A stretch of DNA of 64,000 nt from the NCBI RefSeq assembly GCF_029581395.1, contig NZ_CP121113.1:2290001-2354000 (forward strand), given 5' to 3'. Positions within the stretch are counted from its first letter, which is position 1, and each line of letters opens with the position of its first letter. Of this stretch, positions 4,909 through 64,000 are shown in pieces. This DNA comes from Roseinatronobacter sp. S2. GTDB taxonomy: Bacteria; Pseudomonadota; Alphaproteobacteria; Rhodobacterales; Rhodobacteraceae. The position numbers and the translations under genes are program-made. A model generated the notes under the pieces. The model did not search any database. It saw only the letters and a list, made by a program, of their open reading frames with translations, and was not told the origin of the DNA.

Positions 4909-5107
4909 TAGCCCGCGCCATCGGTGGGCCGGGGTCTGCCGATCCAACATTCAAGGAATGCAGTTTATGCAGGCAGCATACTCCTGCCTCTCAAAGCTTG
5001 GACGGACATTAGCCAAATCGGCAGGCCGCGGGACAGCCCACCGATGGCGCGGCGGGCTGCGCCCTTTGCTCCGCGCCTTGGGGCTTTACCGATGTCTGTA
5101 AAAGGCC
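4909..5107 (+). repeat. Intergenic structured repeat, copy A
   Basis: First of five copies of a ~200-bp repeat. It opens with GCCCGCGCCATCGGTGGGCC (4911-4930), continues to CTGCCGAT, has a variable centre, then the inverted arm ATCGGCAGGCCGCGGGACAG and CCCACCGATGGCGC, followed by a GGGCTGCGCCC mini-hairpin and a tail ending AAAAGGCC (5100-5107). It fills the gap between convergent uspA and recR. Reading frames through it resemble frames in other copies only because the DNA is repeated; copy B shifts frame, so I regard it as non-coding. Confidence 0.85.
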
Positions 5108-5146
5108 AGCCCCCCCAAACGGATGCATCACCCAGAACCGACCATC

Positions 5147-5749
5147 CTAGAACGACTTGCGCGCCCGTAGGGCCGCGCCGATCGTGCCATCATCAAGGTA
5201 GTCCAGCTCGCCCCCCATGGGCACGCCTTGGGCAAGGGCGGTGACCTTCACACCTGTCGGGCCAAGTGCATCGGCGATGTAATGCGCGGTTGTCTGGCCG
5301 TCGACTGTGGCACCCAATGCAAGGATCACCTCGCGTGCGCCAATGTCGTTGATCCGGGCCACAAGTTCGGGAATGCGCAGGTCTTCCGGCCCGATTGCGT
5401 CCAGCGCAGACAGTGTGCCGCCCAGCACATGATACAGCCCCTTGAACACGCCCCCGCGTTCCATGGCCCATAAATCGGCGACATCTTCGACCACACAGAT
5501 TTCGGCACTCGCGCGGCGGGCATCATCCGTGCAGATCGCGCAGACCGGCGCGGTCGAGATATTGCCGCATTGCGTGCAGGTCTGCGCCGTTTGCGTCACG
5601 CGGTCCAGCGCGGCCAGAAGCGGGCGCAGGCTTTGGTCGCGGCGCTGGATCAGGTGCAGCACCAGACGCCGCGCAGACCGCGGACCCAGACCGGGCAGCC
5701 GCGCCATCTGCGCGATCAGCGCCTCTATTTCATTGGGGGCACGGTCCAT
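5147..5749 (-). CDS. recR: Recombination mediator protein RecR
   Basis: A 200-residue RecR of normal length. Residues ~10-55 form the helix-hairpin-helix region ([11 protein letters not shown]), followed by the four-cysteine zinc finger (C58, C61, C70, C73) and the Toprim domain starting [14 protein letters not shown]. With RecF/RecO it loads RecA on gapped DNA. It is the last gene of the dnaX-ybaB-recR run on the minus strand, 10 bp after ybaB, the order found in very many bacteria. Downstream it meets repeat copy A. Confidence 0.97.
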
Positions 5750-5759
5750 GTGGCTGCGG

Positions 5760-6104
5760 CTAGAACGGCAGGTTCATGTCGCGCGGCAGTCCAAGGCTTT
5801 CGGCCATCGCACCCATTTCTTCCTTGGAGCGCGCTTCGGCCTTGGCCTGTGCATCCTTGATGGCTGCAAGAATCAGGTCTTCGACCACTTCCTTTTCATC
5901 GGGGTTGAAGATCGAGGGGTCAATTTCCAGCCCCGTCAATTCGCCCTTGGCTGTGGCCGTGGCCTTGACCAGCCCCGCGCCGGATTCGCCGGTGACAATG
6001 ATGGCGTTCAGCTCTTCCTGAAGCTGTGCCATCTTGCCCTGCATTTCCTGCGCGGTTTTCATCATCTTGGCCATGTCGCCAAGCCCGCCCATTCCTTTGA
6101 ACAT
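5760..6104 (-). CDS. ybaB: YbaB/EbfC family nucleoid-associated protein
   Basis: A 114-residue small DNA-binding protein of the YbaB/EbfC family. The N-terminus is glycine/methionine rich ([16 protein letters not shown]) and is followed by the long coiled-coil helix ([16 protein letters not shown]), as expected for the tweezer-shaped dimer. It sits 15 bp after dnaX and 10 bp before recR, so the three are almost certainly one operon. It binds DNA and influences nucleoid structure; its link to DNA repair is inferred from this conserved neighbourhood. Confidence 0.95.
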
Positions 6105-6119
6105 GTCCTTGTCCTTTCG

Positions 6120-7889
6120 TCATGTATCGTCAAACGGATCCCAGTCGGGGTCCAGTTCATCCTCGACCGGTGCCAGCGCTTCGCTTTCGATCTGCGCATC
6201 CGGCGGGTTCAGATCCCGGATATCGGCAATTCGTGCCTGTGGGAATGCCTGAATAACCGCCGCAACCAATGTATTTTCCATGGCTTCGGCTTCTTGCGCG
6301 CTGCGTTCGCGCGCGCGGGTTTCCGCAAGCGTCGGCGCGCCGCCTGTCGATGTGACCGACACGCCCCAGCGCACCCCTGTCCATGTCTGCAAGCGCCCCG
6401 CAAGCCGCGATGCCAGATCGGGTGTGGCATCTGGTGTCGGCTCAAATTCGATCCGGCCGGGGCTGTAGCGCACAAGGCGCAGACAGGTTTCCACCTCGAC
6501 CAGCAGGGCCATGTCGCGCTTCTCGCGGATCAGGGACACAACATCATCGAATTGCGGGTAGTAACCCAATGCAGGGGCCGCGCTGGCAAGGGCCGCTTGC
6601 GGTGCGCCTGCGTGGCCGGATGATGCGTGGCTGGATGATGCGGGACCGGCACCCGTGCGGCCAGAATTCCCCGCAGCGGCAGGGGCGCGCGTGGTGGTGC
6701 CGCCACCGGCGGGGGGCGATGGCGGGGTCTGGTCATGCCATTTGCGCAGCACTTCTTCGGGGCTGGGCAGATCGGCCACATGGGTCAGACGGATAATCGC
6801 CATTTCAGCGGCCATCATCGCATTCGGGGCGGCGGCCACTTCTTCCAGCGCTTTCAGTAACATTTGCCACGCCCGCGTTAACACCCGCATCGGCAAGGTC
6901 TGCGCCATGACCATGCCGCGATCGCGTTCTTCAGGGCTGATGGTGGGGTCATTGCCCGCATCAGGTGTCACTTTGGTAACACTTAGCCAATGCGTAATTT
7001 CAGCCAGATCGCGCAGCACGGCCATCGGGTCGGCCCCGTCGGCATATTGCGCCGACAATTCCGCAAGTGCCGCCCCCGCATCGCCGCGCATGATCTGGTC
7101 AAACAGATCCAGCACCCGCGCGCGGTCCGCAAGCCCCAGCATCGCGCGCACCTGATCGGCGCTGGTTTCACCTGCGCCATGGCTGATCGCCTGATCCAGC
7201 AGCGACATGGCATCGCGCACGGACCCTTCGGCGGCACGCGTGATCAGGGCCAGCGCATCATCCGCGACCTGCCCGCCTTCGGCCTTGGCCACACGGGCCA
7301 GATGCGCGATCATCACTTCCGGTTCGACCCGGCGCAGATCAAAGCGCTGGCACCGCGACAGAACCGTGACGGGAACCTTGCGAATCTCGGTTGTGGCAAA
7401 GATGAATTTCACATGCGCGGGCGGTTCTTCCAGTGTTTTCAACAGCGCATTGAAGGCCGAATTCGACAGCATGTGAACTTCGTCGATGATATATATCTTG
7501 TAGCGCGCCGAGGCCGCGCGATAGGCCACACTGTCAATGATTTCACGAATATCGCCCACGCCCGTACGCGATGCCGCATCCATTTCCATAACATCGACAT
7601 GGCGGCCGTCGGTGATGGCGCGGCAATGTTCGCACTGCCCGCACGGTTCGGTGGTCGGCCCGCCCTGCCCGTCTGCACCTATACAGTTAAGCCCCTTGGC
7701 GATGATCCGCGCCGTTGTGGTTTTGCCGGTGCCGCGAATGCCGGTCATGATAAAGGCATGGTGGATACGGTCTGCCGCGAAAGCATTGCGCAGGGTGCGC
7801 ACCATCGCGTCCTGACCGATCAGATCGGCAAAACTTTCGGGGCGATATTTGCGCGCCAGAACCTGATAGGGGGTTTGGCTGTCTGTCAT
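6120..7889 (-). CDS. dnaX: DNA polymerase III subunits gamma and tau
   Basis: A 589-residue clamp-loader ATPase. It shows the Walker A loop GIRGTGKT at residues 50-57, a zinc module (C69, C83, C86, C89), Walker B with DEVHML, and the sensor LSRCQRFDLRR. After the AAA+ and collar regions (to about 370) comes a low-complexity Ala/Gly/Ser linker around 395-435 and a tau-type C-terminal domain. It loads the beta clamp and couples polymerase to helicase. I see no slippery frameshift heptamer that would obviously produce a separate gamma form. First gene of the dnaX-ybaB-recR operon. Confidence 0.96.
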   Translation of the reverse strand: MTDSQTPYQVLARKYRPESFADLIGQDAMVRTLRNAFAADRIHHAFIMTGIRGTGKTTTARIIAKGLNCIGADGQGGPTTEPCGQCEHCRAITDGRHVDVMEMDAASRTGVGDIREIIDSVAYRAASARYKIYIIDEVHMLSNSAFNALLKTLEEPPAHVKFIFATTEIRKVPVTVLSRCQRFDLRRVEPEVMIAHLARVAKAEGGQVADDALALITRAAEGSVRDAMSLLDQAISHGAGETSADQVRAMLGLADRARVLDLFDQIMRGDAGAALAELSAQYADGADPMAVLRDLAEITHWLSVTKVTPDAGNDPTISPEERDRGMVMAQTLPMRVLTRAWQMLLKALEEVAAAPNAMMAAEMAIIRLTHVADLPSPEEVLRKWHDQTPPSPPAGGGTTTRAPAAAGNSGRTGAGPASSSHASSGHAGAPQAALASAAPALGYYPQFDDVVSLIREKRDMALLVEVETCLRLVRYSPGRIEFEPTPDATPDLASRLAGRLQTWTGVRWGVSVTSTGGAPTLAETRARERSAQEAEAMENTLVAAVIQAFPQARIADIRDLNPPDAQIESEALAPVEDELDPDWDPFDDT

Positions 7890-7991
7890 GGGGTCAAGCC
7901 TTGGTTATGTGCCCATACCCTAACGTGCTGCGGGCGCGATGGGAAACGGGTTTTCATATTCCCCTGCGGTGTTCGGGCTGTGGGGCAGTGA

Positions 7992-8014
7992 TTGAGTATT
8001 TTTTGCAAGATGAA
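7992..8014 (+). repeat. Short 23-nt intergenic motif, copy 1
   Basis: TTGAGTATTT, three T, then GCAAGATGAA. One of five copies of this motif in the window (others at 11379, 24255, 41441, 56705). This copy lies directly after the stop of the pcaD-like pseudogene and is the only one pointing against its flanking genes. Confidence 0.7.
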
Positions 8015-8015
8015 A

Positions 8016-8823
8016 TCAACTGGTTTTGCGCGCAAGCACGCCATGGTCTTGCAAAAATCCGGTTACGCGCTGCGCGAATCCTTCGGGCTGCTCAATCTGC
8101 GCCAGATGGCCCGCGCGACGCAGAATCGCAAAATGTGACCCTGCGACCAGTTCCGTCGTCTCGCGCACCAAGTCAGGGGGTGTCAGCGCGTCGCGGTCGC
8201 CGGTCAGCCCAAGGGTGGGCAAACTCAGGCCGGCGGTGGTGGTATAGAAATCGCTGCCCGCAATCGCGCGGGCGCAACCCGCCCAGCCCTGCGGCGGGCA
8301 GTCCAGCAGCATGTCGCGCCAGATGTTCACATCAGCGCTGCGCAAAAACGCAGGTGTAAACCACCCTTTTCAGCATTTGCGCGGCAATCGCCGCCATGCC
8401 GCGGGCCTGCACCGTATCTGCGCGCGCGTCCCATATCGCTGCCGTGTCCAGCCGTGCACCTGTGCCCGACAACACCAATGCGCGCACCAGATCAGGGCGT
8501 TTGGTGGCAAGGGCCTGTGCGATCAGCCCACCAAGCCCCTGCCCCAGAAAGACACACGCCCCCACGCCCAGACTGTCCAGCAGGGATTCCGTGTCACGCA
8601 CCAACTGGCCCATCGTATAGGGACCATCCGGCGCAGGCGATGCCCCGTGCCCGCGATGATCATAGCGGATAACCCGCAAGTGGCTGGGCAAATGCGGCAA
8701 AAGCGGCGTCCAGACCCGCGCATCACACCCAAGGCTGGCGGACAATACCAGCACTGGCCCGTCCGGCGGGCCGGACTGCCGGAAATGCAGCCCCGCCGCG
8801 TGCGTCACACCCGCCGCAGTCAT
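8016..8823 (-). pseudogene. 3-oxoadipate enol-lactonase-like (PcaD) alpha/beta hydrolase, frameshifted
   Basis: Two minus-strand frames together make one PcaD-like hydrolase. The N-terminal part (start 8823) has oxyanion-loop and YDHRGHGAS features but drifts after MLKR into VVYTCVF and stops; the other frame resumes with LRSADVNIWRDMLL and carries the acid (TGDRDALTP) and the histidine (AGHLAQIEQPE). One extra base in the CCC run at 8364-8366 explains the break: removing it restores MLKRWFTPAFLRSAD. The nucleophile elbow reads GQGLG instead of G-x-S-x-G, so the catalytic serine is also gone, which argues for real decay rather than a sequencing slip alone. It begins 13 bp after the dehydratase gene. 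Confidence 0.82.
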
Positions 8824-8836
8824 GGGGCGGGCGCAA

Positions 8837-9817
8837 TCATGGGGTCGTGCATTCCAGCGCCCGTTGGAAAACGTCGCGGTCCACATTCCCGCCGGAAACG
8901 GTCACAATCACGCTGTCCCCGTCAATCTGGTCAGGCAGGAACAGCGCCGCCGCCAGCGCCACCGCGCCGCCCGGTTCCACCACGATCTTCAGCCGCTCGA
9001 ACGCCAGTGCCATTGCCGCCAGCACCTGCGCATCACTGACCACCAGCCCCGCCCCGCATAGCCGTTTCAAAATGGGCCAGGTCAGCTTGCCCGGCGCAGG
9101 CGTGACAATCGCATCACACAGCCCCGAGCGCTGCGGATGCGTCACCACCTGCCCCTGCGCCAGCGATTTGGCCACATCATCAAACCCTTCGGGTTCGGCC
9201 GTGCGCACCTGCATGTCGGGGGCGTGTTGCTCCAGCGCCAGCGCAATCCCCGATGTCAGCCCGCCGCCACCGCAGCACACCAGCACCTGTGCCGATGTCA
9301 CGCCCTGTCGGGCGGCTTGTTCGGCGATTTCCAGCCCCGTTGTGCCCTGCCCCGCAATCACTTGCGGATGATCAAACGGCTGGATCAGGCTTAGTCCGCG
9401 TTCGGCGGCAAGTTTTGCACCCAATGCATCGCGATCCTCGGACGCGCGGTCATACAGCACCACCTCGGCCCCCAGCGCGCGGGTATTGGCGATCTTGATG
9501 GCGGGCGCGTCGCGCGGCATGATGATGACAGCCGACAGCCCGCGCAACCCCGCCGCATAGGCCACGCCCTGCGCATGATTGCCCGATGAATAGGCAATCA
9601 CCCCGCGCACATCATCACGCAGCGCGGTAACCGCGGACCACGCACCGCGAAACTTGAAACTGCCGGTATGTTGCAGACATTCCGCCTTGACGAACACCCG
9701 GCGCCCCGCAATTTCATCCAGAAACGGCGATGACAGCAGCGGTGTGCGCCGCGCATGGCCTTGCAGGCGCAGGTTCGCAGCTTCGATCATGCCAATATTC
9801 ACAGGCACAGTATTCAT
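8837..9817 (-). CDS. Threonine/serine dehydratase-like PLP enzyme
   Basis: A 326-residue fold-type II PLP enzyme. It has the Schiff-base lysine in GSFKFRG (K55), the SSGNHAQG loop, the glycine-rich phosphate cradle CCGGGGLTSG, and the SGGN motif near the end. There is no C-terminal ACT regulatory domain, so it is a catabolic-size enzyme rather than biosynthetic IlvA; threonine dehydratase, serine dehydratase or hydroxyaspartate ammonia-lyase are all possible. The ATG at 9817 overlaps the preceding hydrolase stop as ATGA and begins the family-typical N-terminus. A longer in-frame extension would overlap the hydrolase heavily and is rejected. Confidence 0.88.
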   Translation of the reverse strand: MNTVPVNIGMIEAANLRLQGHARRTPLLSSPFLDEIAGRRVFVKAECLQHTGSFKFRGAWSAVTALRDDVRGVIAYSSGNHAQGVAYAAGLRGLSAVIIMPRDAPAIKIANTRALGAEVVLYDRASEDRDALGAKLAAERGLSLIQPFDHPQVIAGQGTTGLEIAEQAARQGVTSAQVLVCCGGGGLTSGIALALEQHAPDMQVRTAEPEGFDDVAKSLAQGQVVTHPQRSGLCDAIVTPAPGKLTWPILKRLCGAGLVVSDAQVLAAMALAFERLKIVVEPGGAVALAAALFLPDQIDGDSVIVTVSGGNVDRDVFQRALECTTP

Positions 9818-10635
9818 AGGCACATTCCTAACCATTGATGAATCGCGCGAAGCGATTCTGCCTCGTCCAGAAACGGTATATGCCCGCGCCCGGGCACGTC
9901 CTCGACAATCATATCGGGGCGACGCTCCTGCATCAGCTGCACTGTGGCCTCGCTCAGCAGGTTGGAATTCGCCCCGCGAATGACCGCCAGCGGCAGACCG
10001 GCGCAGGCCTCGAACAGCGGCCACAAATCCCCGCCGCCCCCCTCCATCGCGGCCAGAAAGGCATCGCGCAGCGCGGGGTCATAATTCAGATCCAGCCCCT
10101 GATCGGTCTGGATGAAATGCCTGCGCGCCTCCTCGATCCAGCGCTCTGCGGGCACATCCGTGAATTCAGGATGCGCGCGCGCAAGGGCCATCGCGGCTTC
10201 GGCATGGCTGCGCGCCGCAGGCGTGCGCCCGATATAGTCGGAAATCCGGTCAAGCCCGTCCATATCGATCACCGGACCCACATCATTCAGGCAGATCCCG
10301 CGCAGCCTGTCATACGCGATCGCCGCCAGATACATGGCAATGATCCCGCCGCGCGATGTGCCCAGAACCGCCACCTGTTCCAGTCCCAGGTAGTCCAGCA
10401 ATTCCACCACATCCGCGCTTTCGCGCGGTATGGTGTAGCTGTCCGCCCCTGTCCATTCCGACTGCCCGCGCCCCCGGTAATCCATCCGTATCAAGCGCAA
10501 CGACGGCAGATGCGGCGCAAGATAGTCAAAATCGCTGCCATTGCGCGTCAGGCCCGACAGGCACAAAAGCGCGCGCCCATGTCCGGTATCTGTGTAGTGC
10601 AACTGCGCCCCGTCGGACGCGGTGAAAAACGGCAT
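9814..10635 (-). CDS. Alpha/beta-fold hydrolase
   Basis: A 273-residue soluble hydrolase. The oxyanion segment is LSGLTRNGSD, the strand-turn MDYRGRGQSEW is typical, the nucleophile elbow is GTSRGG (S94), and the catalytic histidine is in GRGHIPFLDEAESL near the C-terminus. The substrate is not identifiable; it resembles esterase/lactonase-type members. It starts immediately after the HAD gene's TAG stop and overlaps the next gene by ATGA, so HAD, hydrolase and dehydratase are translationally coupled. Confidence 0.88.
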   Translation of the reverse strand: MPFFTASDGAQLHYTDTGHGRALLCLSGLTRNGSDFDYLAPHLPSLRLIRMDYRGRGQSEWTGADSYTIPRESADVVELLDYLGLEQVAVLGTSRGGIIAMYLAAIAYDRLRGICLNDVGPVIDMDGLDRISDYIGRTPAARSHAEAAMALARAHPEFTDVPAERWIEEARRHFIQTDQGLDLNYDPALRDAFLAAMEGGGGDLWPLFEACAGLPLAVIRGANSNLLSEATVQLMQERRPDMIVEDVPGRGHIPFLDEAESLRAIHQWLGMCL

Positions 10636-11322: not shown

Positions 11323-11378
11323 GCGCGTCTCCTTGTTTTCCGATACAACCTGCAAAGGTGCTTTACCCCCGTGCAGGT

Positions 11379-11401
11379 TTCATCTTGCCAAAAATACTCA
11401 A
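11379..11401 (-). repeat. Short 23-nt intergenic motif, copy 2
   Basis: On the minus strand TTGAGTATTT, TTG, GCAAGATGAA. It lies 28 bp after the hisD stop and upstream of the HAD gene, in the direction of transcription. Confidence 0.7.
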
Positions 11402-11429
11402 CCGCACAACGCCATCTTTTCAACCCGCA

Positions 11430-24218: not shown

Positions 24219-24254
24219 AGCCTGCCCCTTGTTGCCCCTGCCGATGAAACAGGT

Positions 24255-24277
24255 TTCATCTTGCCGCAAATACTCAA
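24255..24277 (-). repeat. Short 23-nt intergenic motif, copy 3
   Basis: Minus strand TTGAGTATTT, GCG, GCAAGATGAA. It lies in the 85-bp gap between pgl and pgi, 27 bp after the pgl stop, in the transcription direction. Confidence 0.7.
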
Positions 24278-30634: not shown

Positions 30635-31249
30635 TCAACGCTCGATTGTGACACGTTCCATCCGGTCGGGGGTTCCCACAACCGCACCATTGCCGCCGGT
30701 GCCGCGCTTGATCGCATCCAGCACGTCGAACCCGTCAATCATCTGGCCCACGACCGTATACTGGCCATCCAGATGGGGCGCAGGGGCAAACATGATGAAA
30801 AACTGGCTGTTGGCGCTGTCAGGGCTTTGGGACCGCGCCATGCCGATCACACCGCGTTCAAACGACTGGTTGGTGAATTCGGCGCGCAGATTGGGCAGGT
30901 CCGACCCGCCGGTGCCCCAACGGCGCGCATTGGCGTCATCGGTGCCATGTTCCACGTCCCCCGTCTGGGCCATGAACCCGTCGATCACGCGGTGAAACAC
31001 CACACCGTCATATTCGCCACGTTCGGCCAGTGTCACAATGCGTTCCACATGGTTCGGGGCCAGATCATCGCGCAGCGCAATGCGGATTTCGCCATTCGCC
31101 TCGCCGGCCACATCAATGACCATCACAGGGCCGGAATGATCTGCGGGCACCGACGTGTCGGCATTGGCGCGCGTCACGCTGTGCCAGGACGCCCCAAGAA
31201 TGCCAAGGCCCACCGCAAACAACCCTGCAAACAGAAGTTTATCACGCAT
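30635..31249 (-). CDS. Peptidyl-prolyl cis-trans isomerase, cyclophilin type, exported or membrane-anchored
   Basis: A 204-residue cyclophilin with an N-terminal hydrophobic segment (LLFAGLFAVGLGILGASW) acting as signal or anchor, so it works on the periplasmic side. The core has VFHRVIDGFMAQTGD, GTGGSDLPN, SQSPDSANSQFFIMF and the GQYTVVGQMIDGFDVL region, covering the active-site arginine, phenylalanine and glutamine. The start at 31249 overlaps the upstream cyclophilin gene by 8 nt. It catalyses proline isomerisation during protein folding in the envelope. Confidence 0.92.
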   Translation of the reverse strand: MRDKLLFAGLFAVGLGILGASWHSVTRANADTSVPADHSGPVMVIDVAGEANGEIRIALRDDLAPNHVERIVTLAERGEYDGVVFHRVIDGFMAQTGDVEHGTDDANARRWGTGGSDLPNLRAEFTNQSFERGVIGMARSQSPDSANSQFFIMFAPAPHLDGQYTVVGQMIDGFDVLDAIKRGTGGNGAVVGTPDRMERVTIER

Positions 31250-31748
31250 CGGCGGCCACCTTGACACTGATCATCTTGTCAGGGGTCGCAGGCGGTTCAC
31301 CGCGGGTGATGGCATCGACATGGTCCATGCCGGAAATGACGCGGCCATAGACCGTGTATTGACGGTTCAGGAAATGGTTGTCGCCAAAATTGATGAAGAA
31401 CTGGCTGTTGGCACTGTCGGGGTTTTGCGAGCGTGCCGCGCCCAGTGTTCCACGGTCATGGGGCACACCGGAAAATTCCGCCTTCAGGTCGGGCAGGTCC
31501 GACCCGCCTGTGCCTGCGCGGCGCAGATCGAACGCCTTTTCGGTATTGCCATTGGCCACATCGCCGGTCTGGGCCATGAACCCCTCAATGACGCGGTGAA
31601 ACACGACATTGTCATAGGCCCCTGCGCGCGCCAGTTCCTTCATGCGCGCACAATGGCCCGGCGCCACATCCGGCAACAATTCGATTGTGACAGTGCCGGT
31701 TTTCAACTCCATCAGGATGGTGTTTTCGGGGTCTTTGATCTCGGCCAT
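31242..31748 (-). CDS. Peptidyl-prolyl cis-trans isomerase, cyclophilin type, cytoplasmic
   Basis: A 168-residue single-domain cyclophilin without a signal peptide. It has NVVFHRVIEGFMAQTGD, RRAGTGGSDLPDL, SQNPDSANSQFFINF and RQYTVYGRVISGMDHVD. AAGGAG is 6 nt before the ATG at 31748, so longer in-frame versions are rejected. It is coupled to the exported paralogue behind it, giving a cytoplasmic/periplasmic pair in one operon, divergent from pgk. Confidence 0.94.
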   Translation of the reverse strand: MAEIKDPENTILMELKTGTVTIELLPDVAPGHCARMKELARAGAYDNVVFHRVIEGFMAQTGDVANGNTEKAFDLRRAGTGGSDLPDLKAEFSGVPHDRGTLGAARSQNPDSANSQFFINFGDNHFLNRQYTVYGRVISGMDHVDAITRGEPPATPDKMISVKVAADA

Positions 31749-33792: not shown

Positions 33793-33984
33793 AGGCTCGA
33801 AGGGGACGCCCAAAGGCGCGGAATCAAGGGCGCAGCCCGCCGCGCCATCGGTGGGCCGTCCCGCGGCCTGCCGATGTCCTGATGGCAATCCAAGCCATTG
33901 AAGTAAGGGATATGCAGCCTGTATAAACTGCATTCTTATAATGTCGGATCGGCAGACCCCGGCCCACCGCTGGCGCGGGCTATA
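33793..33984 (-). repeat. Intergenic structured repeat, copy B
   Basis: Minus-orientation copy of the ~200-bp element. Its inverted arms are both present (GGGCCGTCCCGCGGCCTGCC near 33852 and GGATCGGCAGACCCCGGCCC near 33945), but the tail has diverged (GGGCGTCCCC replaces GGGCTTTCCC) and the reading frame shifts relative to copies A, C and D. It fills the gap between convergent ftsB and the DUF1330 gene. Confidence 0.82.
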
Positions 33985-34055
33985 TCCACAGCCCCCCCCG
34001 TCACGCCAGACCCAACCAGCACATGCTGTTCCATCTGGTCATGACCGTCGCCGGA

Positions 34056-41440: not shown

Positions 41441-41463
41441 TTGAGTATTTTTGGCAAGATGAA
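41441..41463 (+). repeat. Short 23-nt intergenic motif, copy 4
   Basis: TTGAGTATTT, TTG, GCAAGATGAA, 24 bp after the holC stop, in the direction of transcription. Its sequence is identical to copy 2 over all 23 positions. Confidence 0.72.
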
Positions 41464-46331: not shown

Positions 46332-46745
46332 ATGTATGGCAGAATAATTGTCGCTGTGGATCTGGAACATGTTGATCAGGCGAAAACCCTGGTCAAACGG
46401 GCCGGAACCCTTTTGGATGCGGGCGGGGAAATGCGCCTTGTTCACGTCCTTGAAGAAGTGCCCAGTTTCATCGCGGCACAATTGCCGCGCGACACGCAGG
46501 AACGCCGCCGCGCCGAAGCCATGGTGGAACTCAAGGCGCTGACAGATCCTGCCGCCGGGCTGCGCGTGGTCGAGGATGTGCGCTATGGCGCGGCATCTGG
46601 CCAGATCATGCAGGCCGCCGAAGACAGCAATGCCGACCTTATCATGATCGCCAGTCACAAACCCGGACTGGGCGACTATTTCATCGGCTCCACTGCGGCG
46701 CGCGTGGTGCGCCACGCGACCTGTTCGGTGTTGATTCAACGCTAA
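46332..46745 (+). CDS. Universal stress protein, first of three tandem copies
   Basis: A 137-residue UspA protein: YGRIIVAVDLEHVDQAKTLV at the start, LIMIASHKPGLGDYFIGSTAARVVRHATCSVL at the C-terminus, split around the GS nucleotide-binding turn. AGGA is 7 nt before the ATG at 46332. It is followed 23 bp later by a paralogue sharing the same C-terminal segment. An FNR-like box upstream suggests induction by oxygen limitation, as is known for several usp genes under FNR/ANR in other bacteria. Confidence 0.9.
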   Translation: MYGRIIVAVDLEHVDQAKTLVKRAGTLLDAGGEMRLVHVLEEVPSFIAAQLPRDTQERRRAEAMVELKALTDPAAGLRVVEDVRYGAASGQIMQAAEDSNADLIMIASHKPGLGDYFIGSTAARVVRHATCSVLIQR

Positions 46746-46768
46746 CGCAACCAAAGGAAACCAGACAT

Positions 46769-47185
46769 ATGTATAATTCCATCATCATCGCCGCCGCGCT
46801 GTTCAATGAGGGGGCAACCACCCGCGCCGCTATGGATAAAGCCCGCAAACTGCTGTCAGACGGCGGCAAGGTCACGCTGGTCCATGTTATTGATGAAATC
46901 CCCGGCTATGTTGCGGCAGCCATTCCCCAATCGCAGATTTCGGCCCGTCGCAAGGATGTCGAAGACCAGCTTGCCGCCATTGCCGCAGAATATTCGGATA
47001 TCGCGGTCAGTTCCGTCATTCGTCAGGGCCAGCCATCGGCATCAATCCTGGGATGTGCGCAGGAAGCGGACGCTGATCTTATCATGATTGCCAGCCACAA
47101 ACCGGGGTTGAGCGACTATTTCATCGGCTCCACTGCTGCCCGTATCGTGCGGCATGCGCAGGTTTCGGTTCTGGTAACGCGCTGA
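46769..47185 (+). CDS. Universal stress protein, second tandem copy
   Basis: A 138-residue UspA protein starting YNSIIIAAALFNEGATTRAAM, with ADLIMIASHKPGLSDYFIGS and AARIVRHAQVSVLV at the end. AAAGGAAA precedes the ATG and only 23 bp separate it from the first copy, so both are in one transcript, ended by the hairpin at 47205. The N-terminus is closer to the third copy (SIIIAAALFN versus SIVIAVALFN) than to the first, suggesting an ordered duplication. Confidence 0.9.
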   Translation: MYNSIIIAAALFNEGATTRAAMDKARKLLSDGGKVTLVHVIDEIPGYVAAAIPQSQISARRKDVEDQLAAIAAEYSDIAVSSVIRQGQPSASILGCAQEADADLIMIASHKPGLSDYFIGSTAARIVRHAQVSVLVTR

Positions 47186-47204
47186 TCCACCGCAGGGTTC
47201 TGCC

Positions 47205-47239
47205 CCCCGCGCAATCACCTGCGATTGCGCGGGGTTTGC
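47205..47239 (+). terminator. Terminator after the second usp gene
   Basis: A 12-bp perfect stem CCCCGCGCAATC / GATTGCGCGGGG with a 6-nt loop, followed by TTTGCTTTG. It separates the third usp copy from the first two. Confidence 0.85.
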
Positions 47240-47294
47240 TTTGCACCGGCGGCTGTGCCATCTTCCAACAAACCACCGATCCGGGAGGAACAGA

Positions 47295-47711
47295 ATGTAT
47301 CAATCCATCGTCATCGCAGTTGCGTTGTTTAACAAGGGCGCGACCAGCCGCAGCCTGATTGACAAGGCCAACACGCTTGTCGACGCAGGCGGGTCCATCA
47401 CGCTTGTTCATGTCATGGATGAAATACCGGCCTATCTGACGGCTGCGGTGTCAAAAGAGCAGCTTTTGAACCACCGCAAATCCATTCGGACCCAGTTGGA
47501 ATCGCTGGCCTCGCGGGTGAAGGCCAAGAATGTGGATATTGATCTGCGCGGCGGCCGCCCGTCGGAAAATATTCTGAAATGCGCGCGGGACTGCAATGCA
47601 GACCTGATCATGATTTCCAGCCACAAACCCGGAATGAGCGATTATTTCATCGGCTCCACCGCCGCGCGCGTGGTGCGCCATTCACCGATTTCGGTTCTGA
47701 TCGAACGCTGA
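47295..47711 (+). CDS. Universal stress protein, third tandem copy
   Basis: A 138-residue UspA protein: YQSIVIAVALFNKGATSRSLI, then IDLRGGRPSENILKCARDCNADLIMISSHKPGM and DYFIGSTAARVVRHSPISVL. GGGAGGA is ~5 nt before the ATG. It lies behind a terminator and must have its own promoter in the 60-bp gap or rely on read-through. It is closely related to the second copy. Confidence 0.9.
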   Translation: MYQSIVIAVALFNKGATSRSLIDKANTLVDAGGSITLVHVMDEIPAYLTAAVSKEQLLNHRKSIRTQLESLASRVKAKNVDIDLRGGRPSENILKCARDCNADLIMISSHKPGMSDYFIGSTAARVVRHSPISVLIER

Positions 47712-51340: not shown

Positions 51341-51420
51341 GGGGGGCAAGGTTGCAGCCGGTCCAAGGCAATCATGGGCGGGCAGTTCTGGCGTATTGCT
51401 GCCCTTCACACTTGGCCTAA

Positions 51421-51617
51421 GCCCGCGCCATCGGTGGGCCGGGGTCTGCCGATCCGACATTAATGAAGTTCACTTTATACAGGCTACATACTCCTGTGTT
51501 CAAAGGCTCGGTGTGTCGCTGGCCAAATCGGCAGGCCGCGGGACGGCCCGCCGATGGCGCGGCGGGCTGCGCCCTTTGCTCCGCGCCCTGGGGCTTTCCC
51601 AATGACCGCAAAAGGCC
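51421..51617 (+). repeat. Intergenic structured repeat, copy C
   Basis: Plus-orientation copy. Left arm: GCGCCATCGGTGGGCC (51425-51440) then GGGGTCTGCCGAT (51441-51453). A 73-nt centre follows, then the right arm 51527-51560, which begins ATCGGCAGG and ends CCGATGGCGC, complementary to the left. The tail holds GGGCTGCGCCC and ends AAAAGGCC. It fills the gap between convergent infC and the CMD gene, after the infC terminator. Confidence 0.87.
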
Positions 51618-51663
51618 AAAACCGAACCACGCCCGCATTCAACGATAACCAGACAACAACCGC

Positions 51664-54424: not shown

Positions 54425-54475
54425 GCCATTGGGCATACCACATCCGTCCCGAAAAAACAACATTCATTTCTCATT

Positions 54476-55865: not shown

Positions 55866-55870
55866 CCATT

Positions 55871-56468: not shown

Positions 56469-56475
56469 ATAAAAA

Positions 56476-56679: not shown

Positions 56680-56704
56680 GACGACAGGAACTGCCGCAAA
56701 AAAG

Positions 56705-56727
56705 TTGAGTATTTGTAGCAAGATGAA
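56705..56727 (+). repeat. Short 23-nt intergenic motif, copy 5
   Basis: TTGAGTATTT, GTA, GCAAGATGAA, between DUF1737 and mch. Its last bases abut GAGG (56728-56731), the ribosome site of mch. Confidence 0.7.
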
Positions 56728-56736
56728 GAGGGCAGG

Positions 56737-57765: not shown

Positions 57766-57797
57766 GACACGGCCCCGAGTCGCAGGCATGGCGATAG

Positions 57798-57849
57798 GTG
57801 ATCACAAGGCCACCCATTATGTGATCACAAGCTGGCATCGTGTGATCAC
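57798..57849. promoter_or_regulatory. Three phased GTGATCAC palindromes upstream of sdh
   Basis: Perfect 8-bp palindromes GTGATCAC at 57798, 57821 and 57842; the last two extend to TGTGATCACA. Start-to-start distances are 23 and 21 bp, about two helical turns, so bound proteins would lie on one DNA face. The array ends 165 bp before sdhC. The regulator is not known. Confidence 0.65.
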
Positions 57850-58014
57850 ATAATTCATTTTGCTTGCTTTTTTATTACAAACCGCACGGATTTTATGGCG
57901 CAAACCTGCCTCGGCGCGTGACATTCTGATAAAATCCGCTATTGAATGGGGCAGAGCTAAGGCACTTGAGCCAGGCTGCCATTTGCAGCCCTGCCATAGA
58001 AAAGGGAGCCATCC

Positions 58015-58398
58015 ATGGCCGACGTGAACAGGGGCAACCGCCCGCTTTCCCCGCATATGCAAATTTATCGCCTGCCGCTGGCTGCCGTCTCGTCGATCCT
58101 GAACCGGATTACGGGGGTGGGCATGGCGCTTTCGGCGATGCTGATCATCTGGTGGTTCGCCGCCGGCGCATTCGGCGCTGCATATTTCGAGTTCGTTGAC
58201 GGATTGCTGACCTCTGTTATTGGCCATCTGGTGATGATCGGCTCGCTGGCGGCACTTTGGTATCACATGCTCAATTCCATCCGTCACCTGATCTGGGATA
58301 CAGGCCGCATGATGGGCATCGATATCGTCGAGAAAACGACCTATGTGGTCTTCGCAGGCACTGTCGTTCTGACATTGCTGACAATCATCATCATATAA
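58015..58398 (+). CDS. sdhC: Succinate dehydrogenase cytochrome b556 subunit
   Basis: A 127-residue membrane anchor with three helices. RPLSPHMQIYRLPLAAVSSILNRITG is the family start with the quinone-site Ser/Arg region, and WYHMLNSIRHLIWD carries the heme b histidine (the usual glycine of HxxxGxRH is serine here). With SdhD it anchors the SdhAB head and forms the ubiquinone site of complex II. First gene of sdhCDA-lipoprotein-sdhB. Confidence 0.96.
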   Translation: MADVNRGNRPLSPHMQIYRLPLAAVSSILNRITGVGMALSAMLIIWWFAAGAFGAAYFEFVDGLLTSVIGHLVMIGSLAALWYHMLNSIRHLIWDTGRMMGIDIVEKTTYVVFAGTVVLTLLTIIII

Positions 58399-58410
58399 GG
58401 GGCGCGCAAC

Positions 58411-58791
58411 ATGGGGTTCAAAACAGCTTATGCCCGCGTACACGGGTCCGGTTCCGCAGGCGAAGGGTCACATCACTGGTGGTCCCAGCGTATCACGTCG
58501 GTCGCGCTTATCCCTTTGACATTGCTGTTCATCGTGCCGTTCGGGCGGGCATTGGGGTCAGGGCATGACGCATTTGTCGCCACCTATTCCAACCTGTGGC
58601 ACGCATTGGTCGCGATTTTGTTCATCATCGCGGTTTTCGCGCATTTGCAGCAGGGCTTGCAAACGGTGCTGGAAGACTATGTGCCAAACAAGGCCGCGCG
58701 CACAGTGTCGCTGCTGGCCAACACATTGCTGTGCTGGGCGTTCGGCGTTGCCGGTGTCCTGTCGGTTGCATCCGTCCTGTTCAGCGCCTGA
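58411..58791 (+). CDS. sdhD: Succinate dehydrogenase hydrophobic membrane anchor subunit
   Basis: A 126-residue anchor with three membrane helices. The start (YARVHGSGSAGEGSHHWWSQRITS) contains the conserved W-Q-R-x-T region, and FAHLQQGLQTVLEDYV has the heme-ligand histidine and the quinone-site Asp-Tyr pair. It begins 12 bp after sdhC and ends 9 bp before sdhA. Confidence 0.95.
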   Translation: MGFKTAYARVHGSGSAGEGSHHWWSQRITSVALIPLTLLFIVPFGRALGSGHDAFVATYSNLWHALVAILFIIAVFAHLQQGLQTVLEDYVPNKAARTVSLLANTLLCWAFGVAGVLSVASVLFSA

Positions 58792-58800
58792 GGGAAAGAC

Positions 58801-60606
58801 ATGTCTGCTTACAAGATCGAAGAACATACCTATGATGTGGTCGTGGTGGGCGCAGGTGGCGCAGGGTTGCGCGCGACACTGGGCATGGCCGAACAGGGGT
58901 TGAAAACCGCTTGTGTGACCAAGGTTTTCCCGACCCGCAGCCACACTGTGGCTGCACAGGGCGGCATTGCCGCAAGCCTGTCGAATATGGGGCCGGACCA
59001 TTGGCAATGGCACATGTATGACACCGTCAAGGGGTCGGACTGGCTGGGCGATACGGATGCGATGGAATATCTGGCGCGCGAAGCCCCCAAGGCCGTCTAT
59101 GAGCTGGAGCATTACGGCGTGCCGTTTTCGCGCACCGAAGAAGGCAAGATTTACCAGCGCCCCTTTGGCGGCCACACGACCGAATTCGGCGAAGGGCCGC
59201 CCGTGCAGCGCACATGTGCTGCCGCCGACCGCACTGGCCACGCCATGCTGCACACGCTGTATGGCCAGTCGGTCAAGCAAAAGGCCGAGTTTTTCATTGA
59301 ATATTTCGCAACCGACCTGATCATGTCCGAAGATGGGGTGTGTCAGGGCGTGCTGGCGTGGAAGCTGGATGATGGCACGCTGCATCTGTTCAGCGCCAAG
59401 ATGGTGGTTCTTGCCACGGGCGGTTATGGCCGCGCCTATTTCAGCGCCACATCGGCCCATACCTGCACCGGTGACGGAAACGGGATGGTGGCACGCGCGG
59501 GCTTGCCGCTTCAGGATATGGAATTCGTGCAATTCCACCCGACCGGCATTTACGGTGCAGGCTGCCTGATTACCGAAGGCGCGCGCGGCGAAGGCGGTTA
59601 CCTGACCAATTCCGAGGGCGAGCGTTTCATGGAACGCTACGCGCCCCATTACAAGGATCTGGCCCCGCGCGACTATGTCAGCCGGTGCATGACGATGGAA
59701 ATTCGCGAAGGGCGCGGTGTTGGCGCAAATGGCGACCATATCCACCTGCACCTGAACCACCTGCCGCCCGAAACCCTGAAACTGCGCCTGCCCGGTATTT
59801 CCGAATCCGCGCGGGTCTTTGCGGGTGTTGACGTGAACAAGGAACCTATCCCCGTTTTGCCAACGGTGCATTACAATATGGGCGGGATTCCGACCAATTA
59901 CTGGGGCGAGGTTCTGAACGCCGATGCTGAAAACCCCGACCGCGTGTCACCGGGGCTGATGGCTGTGGGCGAAGCGGCCTGTGCCAGCGTGCACGGGGCA
60001 AACCGCCTTGGGTCGAATTCGTTGATTGACCTTGTTGTGTTCGGGCGCGCAGCCGCCATTCGCGCCGGTCAGGTTGTGGACCCCAAAGCGCCCAACCCCA
60101 AGCTGAACAAGGCCAGCGTGGACAAGGCGCTGGAACGCTTCGACAGGTTCCGCAATCTGGACGGCGCTGTGCCGACATCGGACCTGCGGCTTGAAATGCA
60201 AAAGGCCATGCAGTCGGATGCGGCGGTGTTCCGCACCGATAAAACGCTGGCCGAAGGGTGCCGCAAGATGCAGGACGTGGCAGGCAAGATGGCTGACCTG
60301 AAGGTCACCGACCGCAGCCTGATCTGGAACACCGACCTGATGGAAACGCTTGAACTGGACAACCTGATGCCTTGCGCATTGACCACCATTGTGGGCGCCG
60401 AGGCGCGCAAGGAATCGCGCGGGGCGCATGCGCATGAGGATTATCCCGACCGCGACGACGCCACATGGCGCAAGCATACGCTGGCTTGGGTGGATAACAC
60501 ATCGGTCCGGCTGGATTACCGCCCTGTCCATACAGAGCCGCTGACGCTGGAAGCTGATGGTGGCATTTCGATGCAGAAAATCGCCCCTGCCGAACGTAAA
60601 TTCTGA
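58801..60606 (+). CDS. sdhA: Succinate dehydrogenase flavoprotein subunit
   Basis: A 601-residue flavoprotein oxidising succinate to fumarate. The FAD Rossmann motif is [11 protein letters not shown], the covalent FAD histidine is H48 in [13 protein letters not shown], and the substrate region includes [10 protein letters not shown] and [12 protein letters not shown]. It needs SdhE for flavinylation, which is encoded at 27.5 kb. The expected arginine/histidine residues near the dicarboxylate site appear intact. Confidence 0.98.
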
Positions 60607-60620
60607 CGGGTCGGGCGCAG

Positions 60621-60974
60621 ATGGCTTTCATCAGAAAACAGGTTTTGACGGGTCCGAGAGTGCAGACAGGGCTGGCCTGTGCCGCACTTCTGGCACTGTC
60701 CGCCTGCGCCGATATGCAAGACCAGCTGGCGCGCGACGCGGCGCGTAGTGTCGTGCGTCCGGCGCTGGCCGATAACTTTCCCGGCGTGCCGTTGGAACCT
60801 GCCAGCGATTGCGTGATCAACAACGCCAGCGCAAGCGAACTGACGCGGCTTGCACTGGCAGCGGGGCAACCGACCATCAGCCCCCAGACAAATGCGCTGG
60901 TGGTCGAAATCGCCACGCGCCCCGAAACGATTAGATGTCTAGCCACAGACGGGCTTGCCCCGTTCCTGCTTTAA
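60621..60974 (+). CDS. Small lipoprotein encoded inside the sdh operon
   Basis: A 117-residue protein with a lipoprotein signal ([13 protein letters not shown], lipobox LSAC, Cys at about residue 29). The mature part is mostly helical ([19 protein letters not shown]) with two further cysteines (SDCVINN and IRCLATDG). It lies 14 bp after sdhA and 10 bp before sdhB. Comparable small genes in this position occur in related genomes as I recall; a role in complex II is suggested only by location. Confidence 0.75.
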
Positions 60975-60984
60975 GGAGGCGAAA

Positions 60985-61764
60985 ATGGTCCAACTGACCC
61001 TGCCCAAGAATAGCCAGATGCGCATCGGCAAGACCTGGCCCAAGCCAGAAGGCGCCACAAACCTGCGCAAGTTCCAGATTTATCGCTGGAACCCCGATGA
61101 CGGGGAAAACCCGCGTGTGGACACTTATTTTGTCGATATGGACACATGCGGCCCCATGGTTCTTGACGCGCTGATCAAGATCAAAAGCGAAATCGACCCC
61201 ACGCTGACCTTTCGGCGGTCCTGCCGCGAGGGGATTTGCGGGTCTTGCGCGATGAATATCGACGGCGGCAACCAGCTGGCCTGTATTTTCGGCATGGATG
61301 AGGTGAAGGGCGATGTAAAGATCTACCCGCTGCCGCATATGCCGGTGGTCAAGGATCTGGTGCCTGACCTGACGCATTTCTATGCGCAGCATGCGTCCAT
61401 CAAGCCCTGGTTGGAGACCAAATCGAACACCCCCGCCAAGGAATGGAAACAGTCGATTGAAGATCGTGAAAAACTTGACGGGCTTTATGAATGTGTGATG
61501 TGCGCGTGTTGCTCCACGTCCTGCCCAAGCTATTGGTGGAACGGTGACCGCTACCTTGGGCCAGCAGCCCTGTTGCATGCCTATCGCTGGATCATCGATT
61601 CACGCGATGAAGCCACGGGCGAACGGCTTGACGATCTGCATGACCCGTTCAAGCTGTATCGGTGCCACACCATCATGAACTGCACCAAAACCTGCCCCAA
61701 AGGGCTGAACCCCGCCAAGGCCATTGCCGAAGTCAAGAAAATGATGATTTCGCGCACGCATTGA
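60985..61764 (+). CDS. sdhB: Succinate dehydrogenase iron-sulfur subunit
   Basis: A 259-residue protein with three Fe-S clusters: [2Fe-2S] from C80, C85, C88 and C100; [4Fe-4S] from C170, C173, C176 and C237; [3Fe-4S] from C180, C227 and C233. It carries electrons from SdhA flavin to quinone. AAGGAGG lies 5-6 nt before the ATG at 60985. A terminator hairpin follows. Confidence 0.98.
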
Positions 61765-61789
61765 CGCCAGGGCGCTGGGTTATCGGATC

Positions 61790-61818
61790 AAAGGCCGGTC
61801 GCATTTGCGCCGGCCTTT
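61790..61818 (+). terminator. Terminator of the sdh operon
   Basis: Stem AAAGGCCGG / CCGGCCTTT (9 bp) with an 11-nt loop, 25 bp after the sdhB stop. The T-run is short (TTT then AT), so termination strength is uncertain. Confidence 0.65.
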
Positions 61819-61920
61819 ATGATGAGTGTGAAGCACAAACTTGATTATGTGACAGCGGATGAATCCGGTCCAGCGACCGACTGGCCATCTTACCGTCCTA
61901 CGTAACCAATGGTCAGTTCT

Positions 61921-62120
61921 GGCCTTTTGCGGACATCGGGAAAGCCCCAAGGCGCGGAGCAAAGGGCGCAGCCCGCCGCGCCATCGGCGGGCCGTCCCGC
62001 GGCCTGCCGATTTGGCCAGCGACACGCCAAGCGATTTAAGTAAGGGATATGCAGCTTGCATAAACTGCGCGTCTCAAATGCCGGACCGGCAGACCCCGGC
62101 CCACCGTTGGTGCAGGCTTA
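61921..62120 (-). repeat. Intergenic structured repeat, copy D
   Basis: Minus-orientation copy, starting GGCCTTTTGCGGACATCGGG (61921-61940). Over the 94 bases shared with copy E only one difference is seen (C for T in the arm). Both arms are present; the end nearest 62120 is more divergent (GTGCAGGCTTA). It fills most of the convergent gap between sdhB and the Sel1 gene. Confidence 0.87.
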
Positions 62121-62242
62121 GTCCCCGCGCGAATGTCCCCTTCAGGCCTGCCCCCACCCGCCAACGGTGTTGCCTCGACCGGACATGAACATGGTCCAGA
62201 CCCTCGCCACCACCGTTGCAGCGGGGAACGCTTGCGCTGGTA

Positions 62243-63124
62243 TCAGTCACATACCTCGGATTGCCGCGCTATACAGGTTTGCGCCAGTGCGCCCGCATCT
62301 GCCTGCGCATCGGGGGGCATGACATCGCGCAGCGCCGCGATCAGGTCCTGCGCAGGATCGTGGCCTGCGTTTTGCGCGTTCAGCGCCCATGCCAGCGCAA
62401 GGCGGTAACTGCCCCGCCCGCCCCGACCGCGTGCCTGCATCAGCGCCAGATTATACATTGCAGGGGCAAAGCCCGCATGGGCTGCGCGCAGATACCAGCC
62501 GCGCGCGGCGGCGGCATCCTGCGCCACGCCGTGACCTGCCGCCAAGGCGCGGGCCAGTTCAAATTTCGCCGCAACATGGCCTTGCCCTGCGGCCTGTTCG
62601 AACCAGTGCGCAGCCTGTTGGGGGTGCCCCCCCTCCATCAGCAGGGTCGCCAGCGCGAATTGCGCCTGTGCGTGACCTTGCTGTGCGGCCTGTTCATACC
62701 AATGCCGGGCTGCATCGGGGTCACCTTCACCTGCCAGCCCCTGATCAAGGATAAGCCCCGACATGAATTGCGCAGTCACATCACCGGCCTGCGCGGCCCG
62801 TTCATACCAATGTTCAGCCTGCACCCAATCATGCCGGTCAAGCGACAGGTCCGCCAGCGCGATTTTCGCGGGCAGGTATCCGGCCTGTGCGGCCTTGTCC
62901 AACCAGTGATCCGCCTGATCTGTGCCAATACCACCCTGCCCTGCAAGCGCCAGAACGCCCAGATTGTATTGCGCCAGCACGTCCCCGCGCGATGCCAGCG
63001 GTTGCAGGATCTGCACCGCGCGGTCACTATCGCCCCGATCCAGATATGCCAGCGCATCATCGACGCGCAATTGCGCATTCGCGCCTGTGGGGTGCGCCAT
63101 CAACGCCAGCGCCACACATACCAT
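62243..63124 (-). CDS. Exported Sel1-repeat (TPR-like) protein
   Basis: A 293-residue protein with a signal peptide (MVCVALALMAHPTGANA) and about six Sel1-like repeats, seen as recurring A-x-x-W-Y/F-E-x-A-A-x-x-G-x-x-x-A-x-F units (for instance AEHWYERAAQAGDVTAQF, ARHWYEQAAQQGHAQAQF, AAHWFEQAAGQGHVAAKF). Such solenoids bind other proteins, often in envelope or signalling complexes. The ATG at 63124 is chosen; a GTG nine bases upstream is also in frame. No partner is evident. Confidence 0.85.
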   Translation of the reverse strand: MVCVALALMAHPTGANAQLRVDDALAYLDRGDSDRAVQILQPLASRGDVLAQYNLGVLALAGQGGIGTDQADHWLDKAAQAGYLPAKIALADLSLDRHDWVQAEHWYERAAQAGDVTAQFMSGLILDQGLAGEGDPDAARHWYEQAAQQGHAQAQFALATLLMEGGHPQQAAHWFEQAAGQGHVAAKFELARALAAGHGVAQDAAAARGWYLRAAHAGFAPAMYNLALMQARGRGGRGSYRLALAWALNAQNAGHDPAQDLIAALRDVMPPDAQADAGALAQTCIARQSEVCD

Positions 63125-63273
63125 TCGTATCACGTTTCCCGCGCCCCGTATTTGCCCTGCTTTCGGTTTCTATACTTTGGGGTCGGGGCGCTGTCACGCC
63201 TTTGTGACATGCGCGCGACAGCTTGCGCCAGTGATGCAGGGACTTTATGCGTAGCGCACGAAAAGGAGGCCCC

Positions 63274-63897
63274 ATGACACCCGACCAGATTGAAGCGCTT
63301 TTCACCCGTTCCGATGGCAGTTTTCTGTGCGCACGCTGGGGCCGGCCCATCGTGCCGGTGATCTTCGGGGTGGAAGATGCCACGCTCGCCACCATCAAGG
63401 GCGCGATTGAAGCGGTTGTGGCACTTGCCGGTCACAAAATGGCGGAAACCGATCCCGAACTTGGCGCAAACCTGATGGTTTTTGTCTTCAGGGACTGGTC
63501 GGAATTGCTGGATGTGCCCAATCTGGACCGGCTGGTTGACGGGCTGAACCCACTGGTTGCGCGGTTGCGCGCGGCAGGGGCGAACCAGTATCGCGTGTTC
63601 CGGTTTGACGAGCGGAACGCAATCCGCGCGGCGTTCGTGTTTGTGCAGATGGATGAGGCATTATCCGATGTGCCCGCCGATGTTCTGGCACTGTCACAGG
63701 CGGTGCAGGTCATCCTGCTGTGGTCTGATCGTGCATTCACAGACATGTCGGCGCTGGCGGTCCATCAGGGCCAGACCATCCTGCGCCCCGAGATTGCAGG
63801 CGTTATCCGTGCGGCCTATGATCCTGTCCTGCCCGCTGTCTCTGATGACCGCACCCATGCGCTGCGCCTGTCTGCGCGTATCCGTGCGCATCAATAG
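63274..63897 (+). CDS. Conserved hypothetical protein
   Basis: A 207-residue soluble protein. It begins MTPDQIEALFTRSDGSFLCARWGRPI and continues with alternating helices and strands (GVEDATLATIKGAIEAVVAL; VFRFDERNAIRAAFVFVQMDE). AGGAGG is 4 nt before the ATG at 63274, supporting this start over one 27 bp upstream. There is no signal peptide and no catalytic motif that I can name. The intergenic repeat copy E follows the stop. Confidence 0.75.
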   Translation: MTPDQIEALFTRSDGSFLCARWGRPIVPVIFGVEDATLATIKGAIEAVVALAGHKMAETDPELGANLMVFVFRDWSELLDVPNLDRLVDGLNPLVARLRAAGANQYRVFRFDERNAIRAAFVFVQMDEALSDVPADVLALSQAVQVILLWSDRAFTDMSALAVHQGQTILRPEIAGVIRAAYDPVLPAVSDDRTHALRLSARIRAHQ

Positions 63898-63906
63898 GGG
63901 ATTGTG

Positions 63907-64000
63907 GGCCTTTTGCGGACATCGGGAAAGCCCCAAGGCGCGGAGCAAAGGGCGCAGCCCGCCGCGCCATCGGTGGGCCGTCCCGCGGCCTGCCGATTTG
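63907..64000 (-). repeat. Intergenic structured repeat, copy E (cut by window end)
   Basis: The tail and right arm of a minus-orientation copy, nearly identical to copy D; the centre and left arm lie beyond the window. It begins 10 bp after the stop of the hypothetical gene. Confidence 0.85.

Follow-up and report, generated by a model that had tools for sequence, protein, structure and literature searches.

Fixed sites and changing content in a palindromic intergenic repeat family of Roseinatronobacter sp. S2

The window analysed here is a stretch of 64,000 nucleotides from Roseinatronobacter sp. S2 (Rhodobacteraceae), positions 2,290,001 to 2,354,000 of contig NZ_CP121113.1 (C1 below). The published genome report (PMC10508151) gives the assembly as 4,445,845 bp in six contigs with an N50 of 3,479,920. 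The window includes five copies, A to E, of an intergenic element built round a long imperfect palindrome. These had been noticed in a reading of the window's sequence only (the sequence-only reading) as a structured repeat of about 200 bp. The main property of the element, content exchange at fixed sites, is invisible from the window sequence alone and emerges from comparison with related genomes.

Profile searching places the element between the words TGGCCT and AGGCCA, a unit of approximately 230 bp. Both ends carry terminal inverted repeats (TIRs) of about 18 bp, of which there are two common types, with TTTTGC or GAAGC following TGGCCT. Its interior has arms in two pairs, one of 18 nt and one of 8 nt, together with a variable centre and a hairpin in the tail. 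In copy A (4879–5108, + strand) the left TIR (4879–4897) is of the GAA type and the right TIR (5091–5108) of the AAAAGGCCA type. The left long arm CCGCGCCATCGGTGGGCC (4913–4930) and the left short arm CTGCCGAT (4936–4943) face the right short arm ATCGGCAG (5017–5024) and the right long arm (5035–5052). The tail hairpin GGGC-TGC-GCCC (5054–5064) shows a compensatory swap to GGCC-GGCC in other copies. Outside the unit, one or both ends carry an outer module, alpha or beta, in 53 of 105 copies. The 20 copies with modules at both ends comprise 12 alpha-beta, five beta-alpha, two alpha-alpha and one beta-beta, 17 therefore having one of each. These modules were considered as an independent insertion target and rejected as such, since 56 of the 57 module matches adjoin an element and the last one lies at a deletion scar.

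Copy A lies in a convergent gap between genes at 4419–4844 (+) and 5147–5749 (−). Copy B, whose ends are worn (about 33793–34008, profile match 33799–33990, − strand), copy C (51389–51618, +) and copy D (61920–62149, −) also occupy convergent gaps, C and D as full units, although the right neighbour of B is a weakly supported call of 100 codons. Copy E (− strand) is cut by the window edge (63906–64000, continuing to C1:2354138); its gap is a tandem one, in which the preceding gene ends 8 bp before the element. D and E have in common about 96 nt in which a single position differs, and are unlike elsewhere. The positions, strands and mutual alignability of the five copies, and the convergent location of A to D, were thus as the sequence-only reading had given them, while its copy ends fell short of the true unit. 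That reading was also right about the long pairing arms, in seeing no transposase nearby and in arguing against coding: open reading frames can be listed across the copies, but our codon-model gene caller places no gene over A to D. A phage origin was discarded, the element having no match in phages; a plasmid collection gave weak matches only, of about 70 bp in two records.

Searching for a 22-nt core pattern with at most three mismatches gives 115 places in the S2 genome (57 forward and 58 reverse) and none on either strand for its reversed control, so that the copies are not due to chance and the supposition of a repeat family holds. Among the matches listed (100 of the 115), 98 are on the chromosome and two on contig C3, elements being scarce on the secondary replicons. 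The profile gives 111 non-overlapping hits, from which we took 105 with a score above 50 for genomic context, 100 with a score above 150 for linkage, and 76 with recognisable ends for target-site duplication. This copy set is a lower bound, as at least three further elements are found near C1:2833245, 2895394 and 2900770. Two reduced elements lacking the centre, at C3:79472 and C3:156143, are both joined at an identical GGGCCG/CGGGAC point. Outside S2, 19 of the 35 other genus members have a match, as do none of 24 genomes of other families. A sample of 198 genomes from the family, counting S2 and one congener, gives 31 with a match, mostly over the right arm alone.

Placement was determined with our own simple codon-model caller in 57 merged stretches of C1 and two of C3, gene calls lying mostly inside an element being set aside before the count. 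The 105 elements are distributed over convergent (81), tandem (22) and divergent (2) gaps and none lies inside a gene, although convergent gaps constitute just 181 of the 1194 gaps in these stretches; placement relative to gene orientation is therefore non-random. The tandem copies are all at least 80 bp from the next gene start, and 21 of the 22 are closer to the 3′ end of the upstream gene (the exception is C3:332863). In a more distant genome, HJB301 (G018), 11 of 15 placed elements are in convergent and four in tandem gaps, with two more at edges; in the distant congener G021, five of eight are convergent and three tandem. The sequence-only reading had placed an element in every convergent gap of the window longer than about 300 bp. 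This is true of the window and nearly so of the stretches fetched around copies, where 56 of 59 convergent gaps of at least 300 bp have one. It fails genome-wide: in 20 stretches without a known copy, 52 of 317 gaps are convergent and the 16 that reach 300 bp contain a single remnant element, so there are many convergent gaps without it. Some of these long gaps may represent genes missed by the caller. The convergent, 3′-end placement suggests that the element is tolerated or used at transcript ends.

Whether the elements change at their sites was addressed by comparison with G012, a metagenome-assembled genome (MAG) whose long collinear blocks are about 92–97% identical to S2 and which has 116 core-pattern places. 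Of 83 G012 elements, 67 could be resolved, 14 could not (contig ends, one-sided flanks) and two are rearrangement junctions. An element is present in both genomes at 59 sites and is full-length in both, judged by profile ends, at 27. At 25 of these sites the element is kept: identity is 87.6–99.5%, orientation is always the same, and many of the elements are as conserved as their own flanks (one S2 partner is reduced and was compared over 80 nt). At the other 34 the content is changed, with identity of 73.0–85.6%, and 20 of these elements are inverted while 14 retain their orientation. Inversion is consequently tied to changed content (0/25 kept against 20/34 changed; Fisher p = 6e-7), and its frequency among changed sites is no different from one half (p = 0.39). 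Within the window, copy B is kept in G012 (96.8%, same orientation), and the G012 site of copy C is occupied by a different element, inverted. Simple inversion in place was rejected, since the inverted elements, once turned, match their partner at no more than 84.5%. At eight further G012 element sites S2 has scars, reduced copies or remnants, and a clean empty site was found at none of the 67 resolved sites. HJB301, whose record is not labelled as a MAG, has five of its 17 elements at resolvable sites with flanks 81–90% identical to S2; none of the five keeps its content and four are inverted; for one of these four the S2 partner is a reduced element. At six of the 20 inverted sites, those with modules recognised in both genomes, the core has turned between outer modules that remain in place, an S2 order ‘ab’ for example corresponding to ‘ba’ in G012. 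These comparisons show that sites are shared between species and that, at many of them, the unit between TGGCCT and AGGCCA has given way to different content from the family. More than half of the clear changes are in the opposite orientation, inversion being unseen without new content, and the flanks, together with the recognised outer modules, stay with the site.

The position at which identity is lost can be followed at 32 of the 68 ends of changed pairs, those that passed our filters, which included a match of at least 70% over the outer 25 bases. Excess identity over random paralogs is 0.70–1.0 from the flank through TGGCCT and falls to 0.26 at the first base beyond it. An uneven shoulder of 0.11–0.82 follows over the next 13 bases (to about position 19), and from 20 bp onwards the values are 0.04–0.36. 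The ends of kept pairs (n = 26) have an identity of 0.73–1.0 all along. Some exchanges thus end at the outer edge of the TIR, others at the inner one.

The interior has a mosaic character. In 100 copies, r2 between common variants separated by more than 15 bp is 0.012–0.017, compared with 0.011–0.012 in permuted data, and all four variant combinations are found in 851 of 851 such pairs, while within 2 bp r2 is 0.485. The element is in this respect a composite of short motifs in varying combinations, as in BIME-like mosaic repeats (BIMEs, bacterial interspersed mosaic elements), and its variable words assort freely beyond about 15 bp. Saturating point mutation would explain this poorly, because the variants are words of several bases which are strongly linked within each word. 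Patches can also be seen in pairs of the same orientation and intermediate identity: C3:179853, 529281 and 2001181 differ from their G012 partners in short words that stand apart, the sequence from one word to the next being identical. Near-identical paralogs are rare, identity to the best paralog having a median of 85% and a maximum of 97%, and conversion of whole copies from single donors was for this reason rejected as the sole process.

Elements are also found at rearrangement junctions in the G012 comparison (L122 and L129). The positions C1:1769172 and C1:1948338, which are apart in S2, are adjacent across an element both in G012 (L129) and in HJB301 (L232); since the two genomes agree, it is probably S2 that was rearranged at this element. 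At L179 (C1:2443883–2449670), 2.9 kb between two elements of G012 is inverted in S2, with reduced remnants at both junctions. A second intergenic repeat family, with core CTCAAAACCGGTTCCCACTTTTGAGC and ends near GCTCTA, is found beside or inside elements at C1:2697276, L122 and L179. It is present inside one S2 element and absent from the same element in G012, and so may itself be mobile.

The explanation we favour, with a probability of roughly 0.6, is that the family is a non-coding imperfect palindrome residing at more than 100 old, fixed sites at gene 3′ ends, whose contents would be reshuffled by orientation-blind ectopic recombination. Copies would exchange sequence by gene conversion, probably started at the palindrome itself, for which cleavage of an extruded hairpin is a possible trigger. 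Both ends of a broken palindrome would carry similar terminal sequence, so that copying of a donor could proceed from either side. Parallel alignment of the donor would leave short patches, head-to-tail alignment would replace and invert the interior, and failed repair would give deletions and rearrangements. Recombination started at the palindrome would in this way explain together the fixed sites, the changed content, the linked inversion, the short patches, the TIR edges and the rearrangement junctions. More tentatively, the copies may persist where they do because a folded bidirectional element would be tolerated at 3′ ends, or put to use there as a boundary or as the end of the transcript.

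Several observations weigh against this explanation. At many ends the retained identity stops after the 6 bp of TGGCCT, which is short for homology of the RecA type and would better suit an enzyme with defined ends. The initiation of the break, the strand exchange and the recombination protein are all inferred. The high outer identity is partly selected by the 70% filter, though the inner drop is not. Several contigs of G012 end inside elements, and HJB301 contributes only five resolved sites. Identities of the same-orientation sites are continuous from 73 to 99.5%, so that the cut at 86% is a choice, and three of the 14 changed sites in this orientation, where the best or second-best match is still the orthologous element, look patchily altered rather than replaced. 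Finally, kept and changed elements are alike in profile score (p = 0.17) and full-length state (p = 0.29). The idea that activity is set by intact ends was dropped on these grounds, and neither feature accounts for the quiet sites.

Among the other explanations, a family of functional RNAs or terminators, in which a bidirectional 3′-end structure is selected for its folding, is supported by the convergent location of most copies and by the proximity of tandem copies to the upstream 3′ end. Folding supports it as well: the copy A core folds far better than shuffled sequence on both strands (z = −5.6 and −5.9), as does the full unit of copy A as RNA (−4.1) and copy C as DNA (−3.5). Covariation, which the sequence-only reading proposed to look for in the arms, gives a mixed picture. 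For the whole structure, 94.2% of cells hold the named pairs (92.8% in shuffles), the covariation score (0.077) exceeds every one of 500 shuffles (mean 0.059) as well as all slides, and the tail hairpin is clearly compensated, GGGC/GCCC alternating with GGCC/GGCC and none of 31 copies being unpaired. Its four main words occur in 29, 25, 9 and 7 of 100 copies, with nine single words and 21 not extractable. Double-changed pairs, however, are not in excess (4 against 3.3; reached in 190 of 500 shuffles). The small tail hairpin accounts for 12 of the 15 double-changed cells and the long arm for one, and in 14 of 31 copies one long-arm pair is broken with no compensating change. As to termination, a terminator-like site of the gene's own is present at 21 of 121 gene ends that precede an element, compared with 33 of 118 in element-free convergent gaps and 5% in shuffled sequence. 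The difference, with p = 0.063, is suggestive only, and 38 of 162 ends, those within 30 bp of an element, were left out of it. Of 100 elements, just 18 on one strand and 16 on the other contain a terminator-like site, a hairpin followed by a T run, so the element does not have the form of an intrinsic terminator, and at the gathering threshold Rfam matches nothing in the window apart from one tRNA. The terminator or RNA-stabiliser option of the sequence-only reading is therefore open but weak: a 3′-boundary role for the element is possible, but as an account of the family we regard functional RNA as doubtful.

With respect to the mechanism of exchange, the chief rival to palindrome-started recombination is an end-recognising recombinase, that is, a dedicated cassette-exchange or transposition enzyme that would recognise the TGGCCT...AGGCCA ends and swap elements either way round at the same site. 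Such an enzyme fits the drop in identity directly past TGGCCT, the parity of orientations among changed sites and the symmetry of the ends, since every combination of the two main types of TIR is represented among the 76 copies with recognisable ends (14, 14, 13 and 5 copies, the rest having other types). Signs of transposition, however, are lacking. Direct repeats flanking these 76 copies show no excess over shuffles, and clean empty sites are absent from the 67 resolved sites. The S2 genome has no RAYT (Y1_Tnp, PF01797) above the cut-off, PF01797 being the only transposase family searched. Its best match covers 30 positions in a 77-amino-acid frame at 22.6 bits, against a cut-off of 23, and spread driven by a RAYT is therefore unsupported. 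As to an autonomous partner sharing the ends, the TIR pattern with one mismatch allowed occurs at 47 places, all on C1: 45 coincide with an element, a reduced copy or a remnant, and two have no element. The scarcity of near-identical, single-donor copies also speaks against wholesale swapping, and together these results make a dedicated enzyme unlikely.

An old MITE-like (miniature inverted-repeat transposable element) or REP-like (repetitive extragenic palindromic) mobile repeat, now inactive and left only at 3′ ends where it is harmless, appears less plausible still. Its TIRs, its length of about 230 bp, its high copy number and its lack of coding capacity would all agree with such an origin, as would the avoidance of genes and promoters and the distribution of matches within the genus and family described above. 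It leaves unexplained, however, the changed content and inversion at fixed sites and the near-absence of linkage, and the turnover of content argues against a purely inert relic. The MITE option offered by the sequence-only reading is likewise contradicted by the lack of target duplications and clean empty sites. That paralogous elements were simply misjoined in metagenome assembly is very improbable: G012 is indeed a MAG with several contigs ending in elements, but to keep both flanks correct and switch content near TGGCCT, two misjoins with very short overlaps would be needed at each of 34 sites, many kept elements match their flanks in conservation, and HJB301 is changed at five of five resolved sites, though it is more distant.

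The window carries other repeated sequences. A repeat of 23–28 nt, TTCATCTTGCCAAAAATACTCAA, occurs three times (11374–11401, 24250–24277 and 41441–41463). Three related stretches of 159 nt lie in successive genes of about 138–139 codons (46587–47711), probably duplicated genes, and two adjacent genes with repeats among them (30635–31748) are related to each other and may encode peptidyl-prolyl isomerases.

Intergenic repeats of a mosaic, palindromic type were already known, and gene conversion was raised long ago for REP sequences, reportedly by Higgins et al. in 1988. MITEs such as the Correia elements are short and non-coding with terminal inverted repeats, as is the S2 element, for which in contrast no target-site duplication, clean empty site or partner was found. 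Rhizobial intergenic mosaic elements (RIME) are likewise alphaproteobacterial intergenic mosaic palindromes, a likeness drawn from description rather than from sequence comparison. In shufflons and integron cassettes, content is also swapped or inverted between fixed flanks, but there a site-specific recombinase acts and coding sequence is carried, neither of which is seen for the S2 element. BIMEs and REP sequences of Escherichia coli and other bacteria are similarly palindromic, high-copy, intergenic and mosaic and often lie behind genes, and the S2 family shares their extragenic location and 3′-end bias. The S2 unit is far longer (about 230 bp against 20–40 bp for REP), has no RAYT above the cut-off and shows changed content and inversion at orthologous fixed sites. 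REPs are described as units of 20–40 nt that carry a GTAG or CGTC tag (PMC3733652). The REPINs of Pseudomonas fluorescens SBW25 also consist of two inverted units and a spacer folding as a hairpin, with many copies outside genes, and for them RAYT-driven movement has been proposed and excision reads have been reported (PMC3116915); in S2 there is neither a RAYT above the cut-off nor a clean empty site. In the open-licence PMC papers searched, mostly as abstracts and hence no proof of absence, there is no description of this element family or of such exchange. Site-by-site changed content, inversion at coin-toss frequency and near-complete loss of linkage were not seen together in that literature.

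Whether bacterial interspersed palindromes move by transposition or change by conversion has been a question since at least 1988. The S2 family, with fixed sites, a near relative and more than 100 copies, allows replacement, inversion, tract edges and linkage all to be counted, and public Nanopore long reads of the strain exist (SRR23870721; PMC10508151). The presence of elements at rearrangement junctions bears on genome plasticity in the family. As a bolder and still tentative possibility, the more than 100 dispersed sites may form one recombining pool with orientation-blind exchange, possibly driven by an enzyme, in which the sites themselves never move. If true, exchange would be fast enough to unlink words 20 bp apart, and the repeats would behave as a sexual population within one genome.

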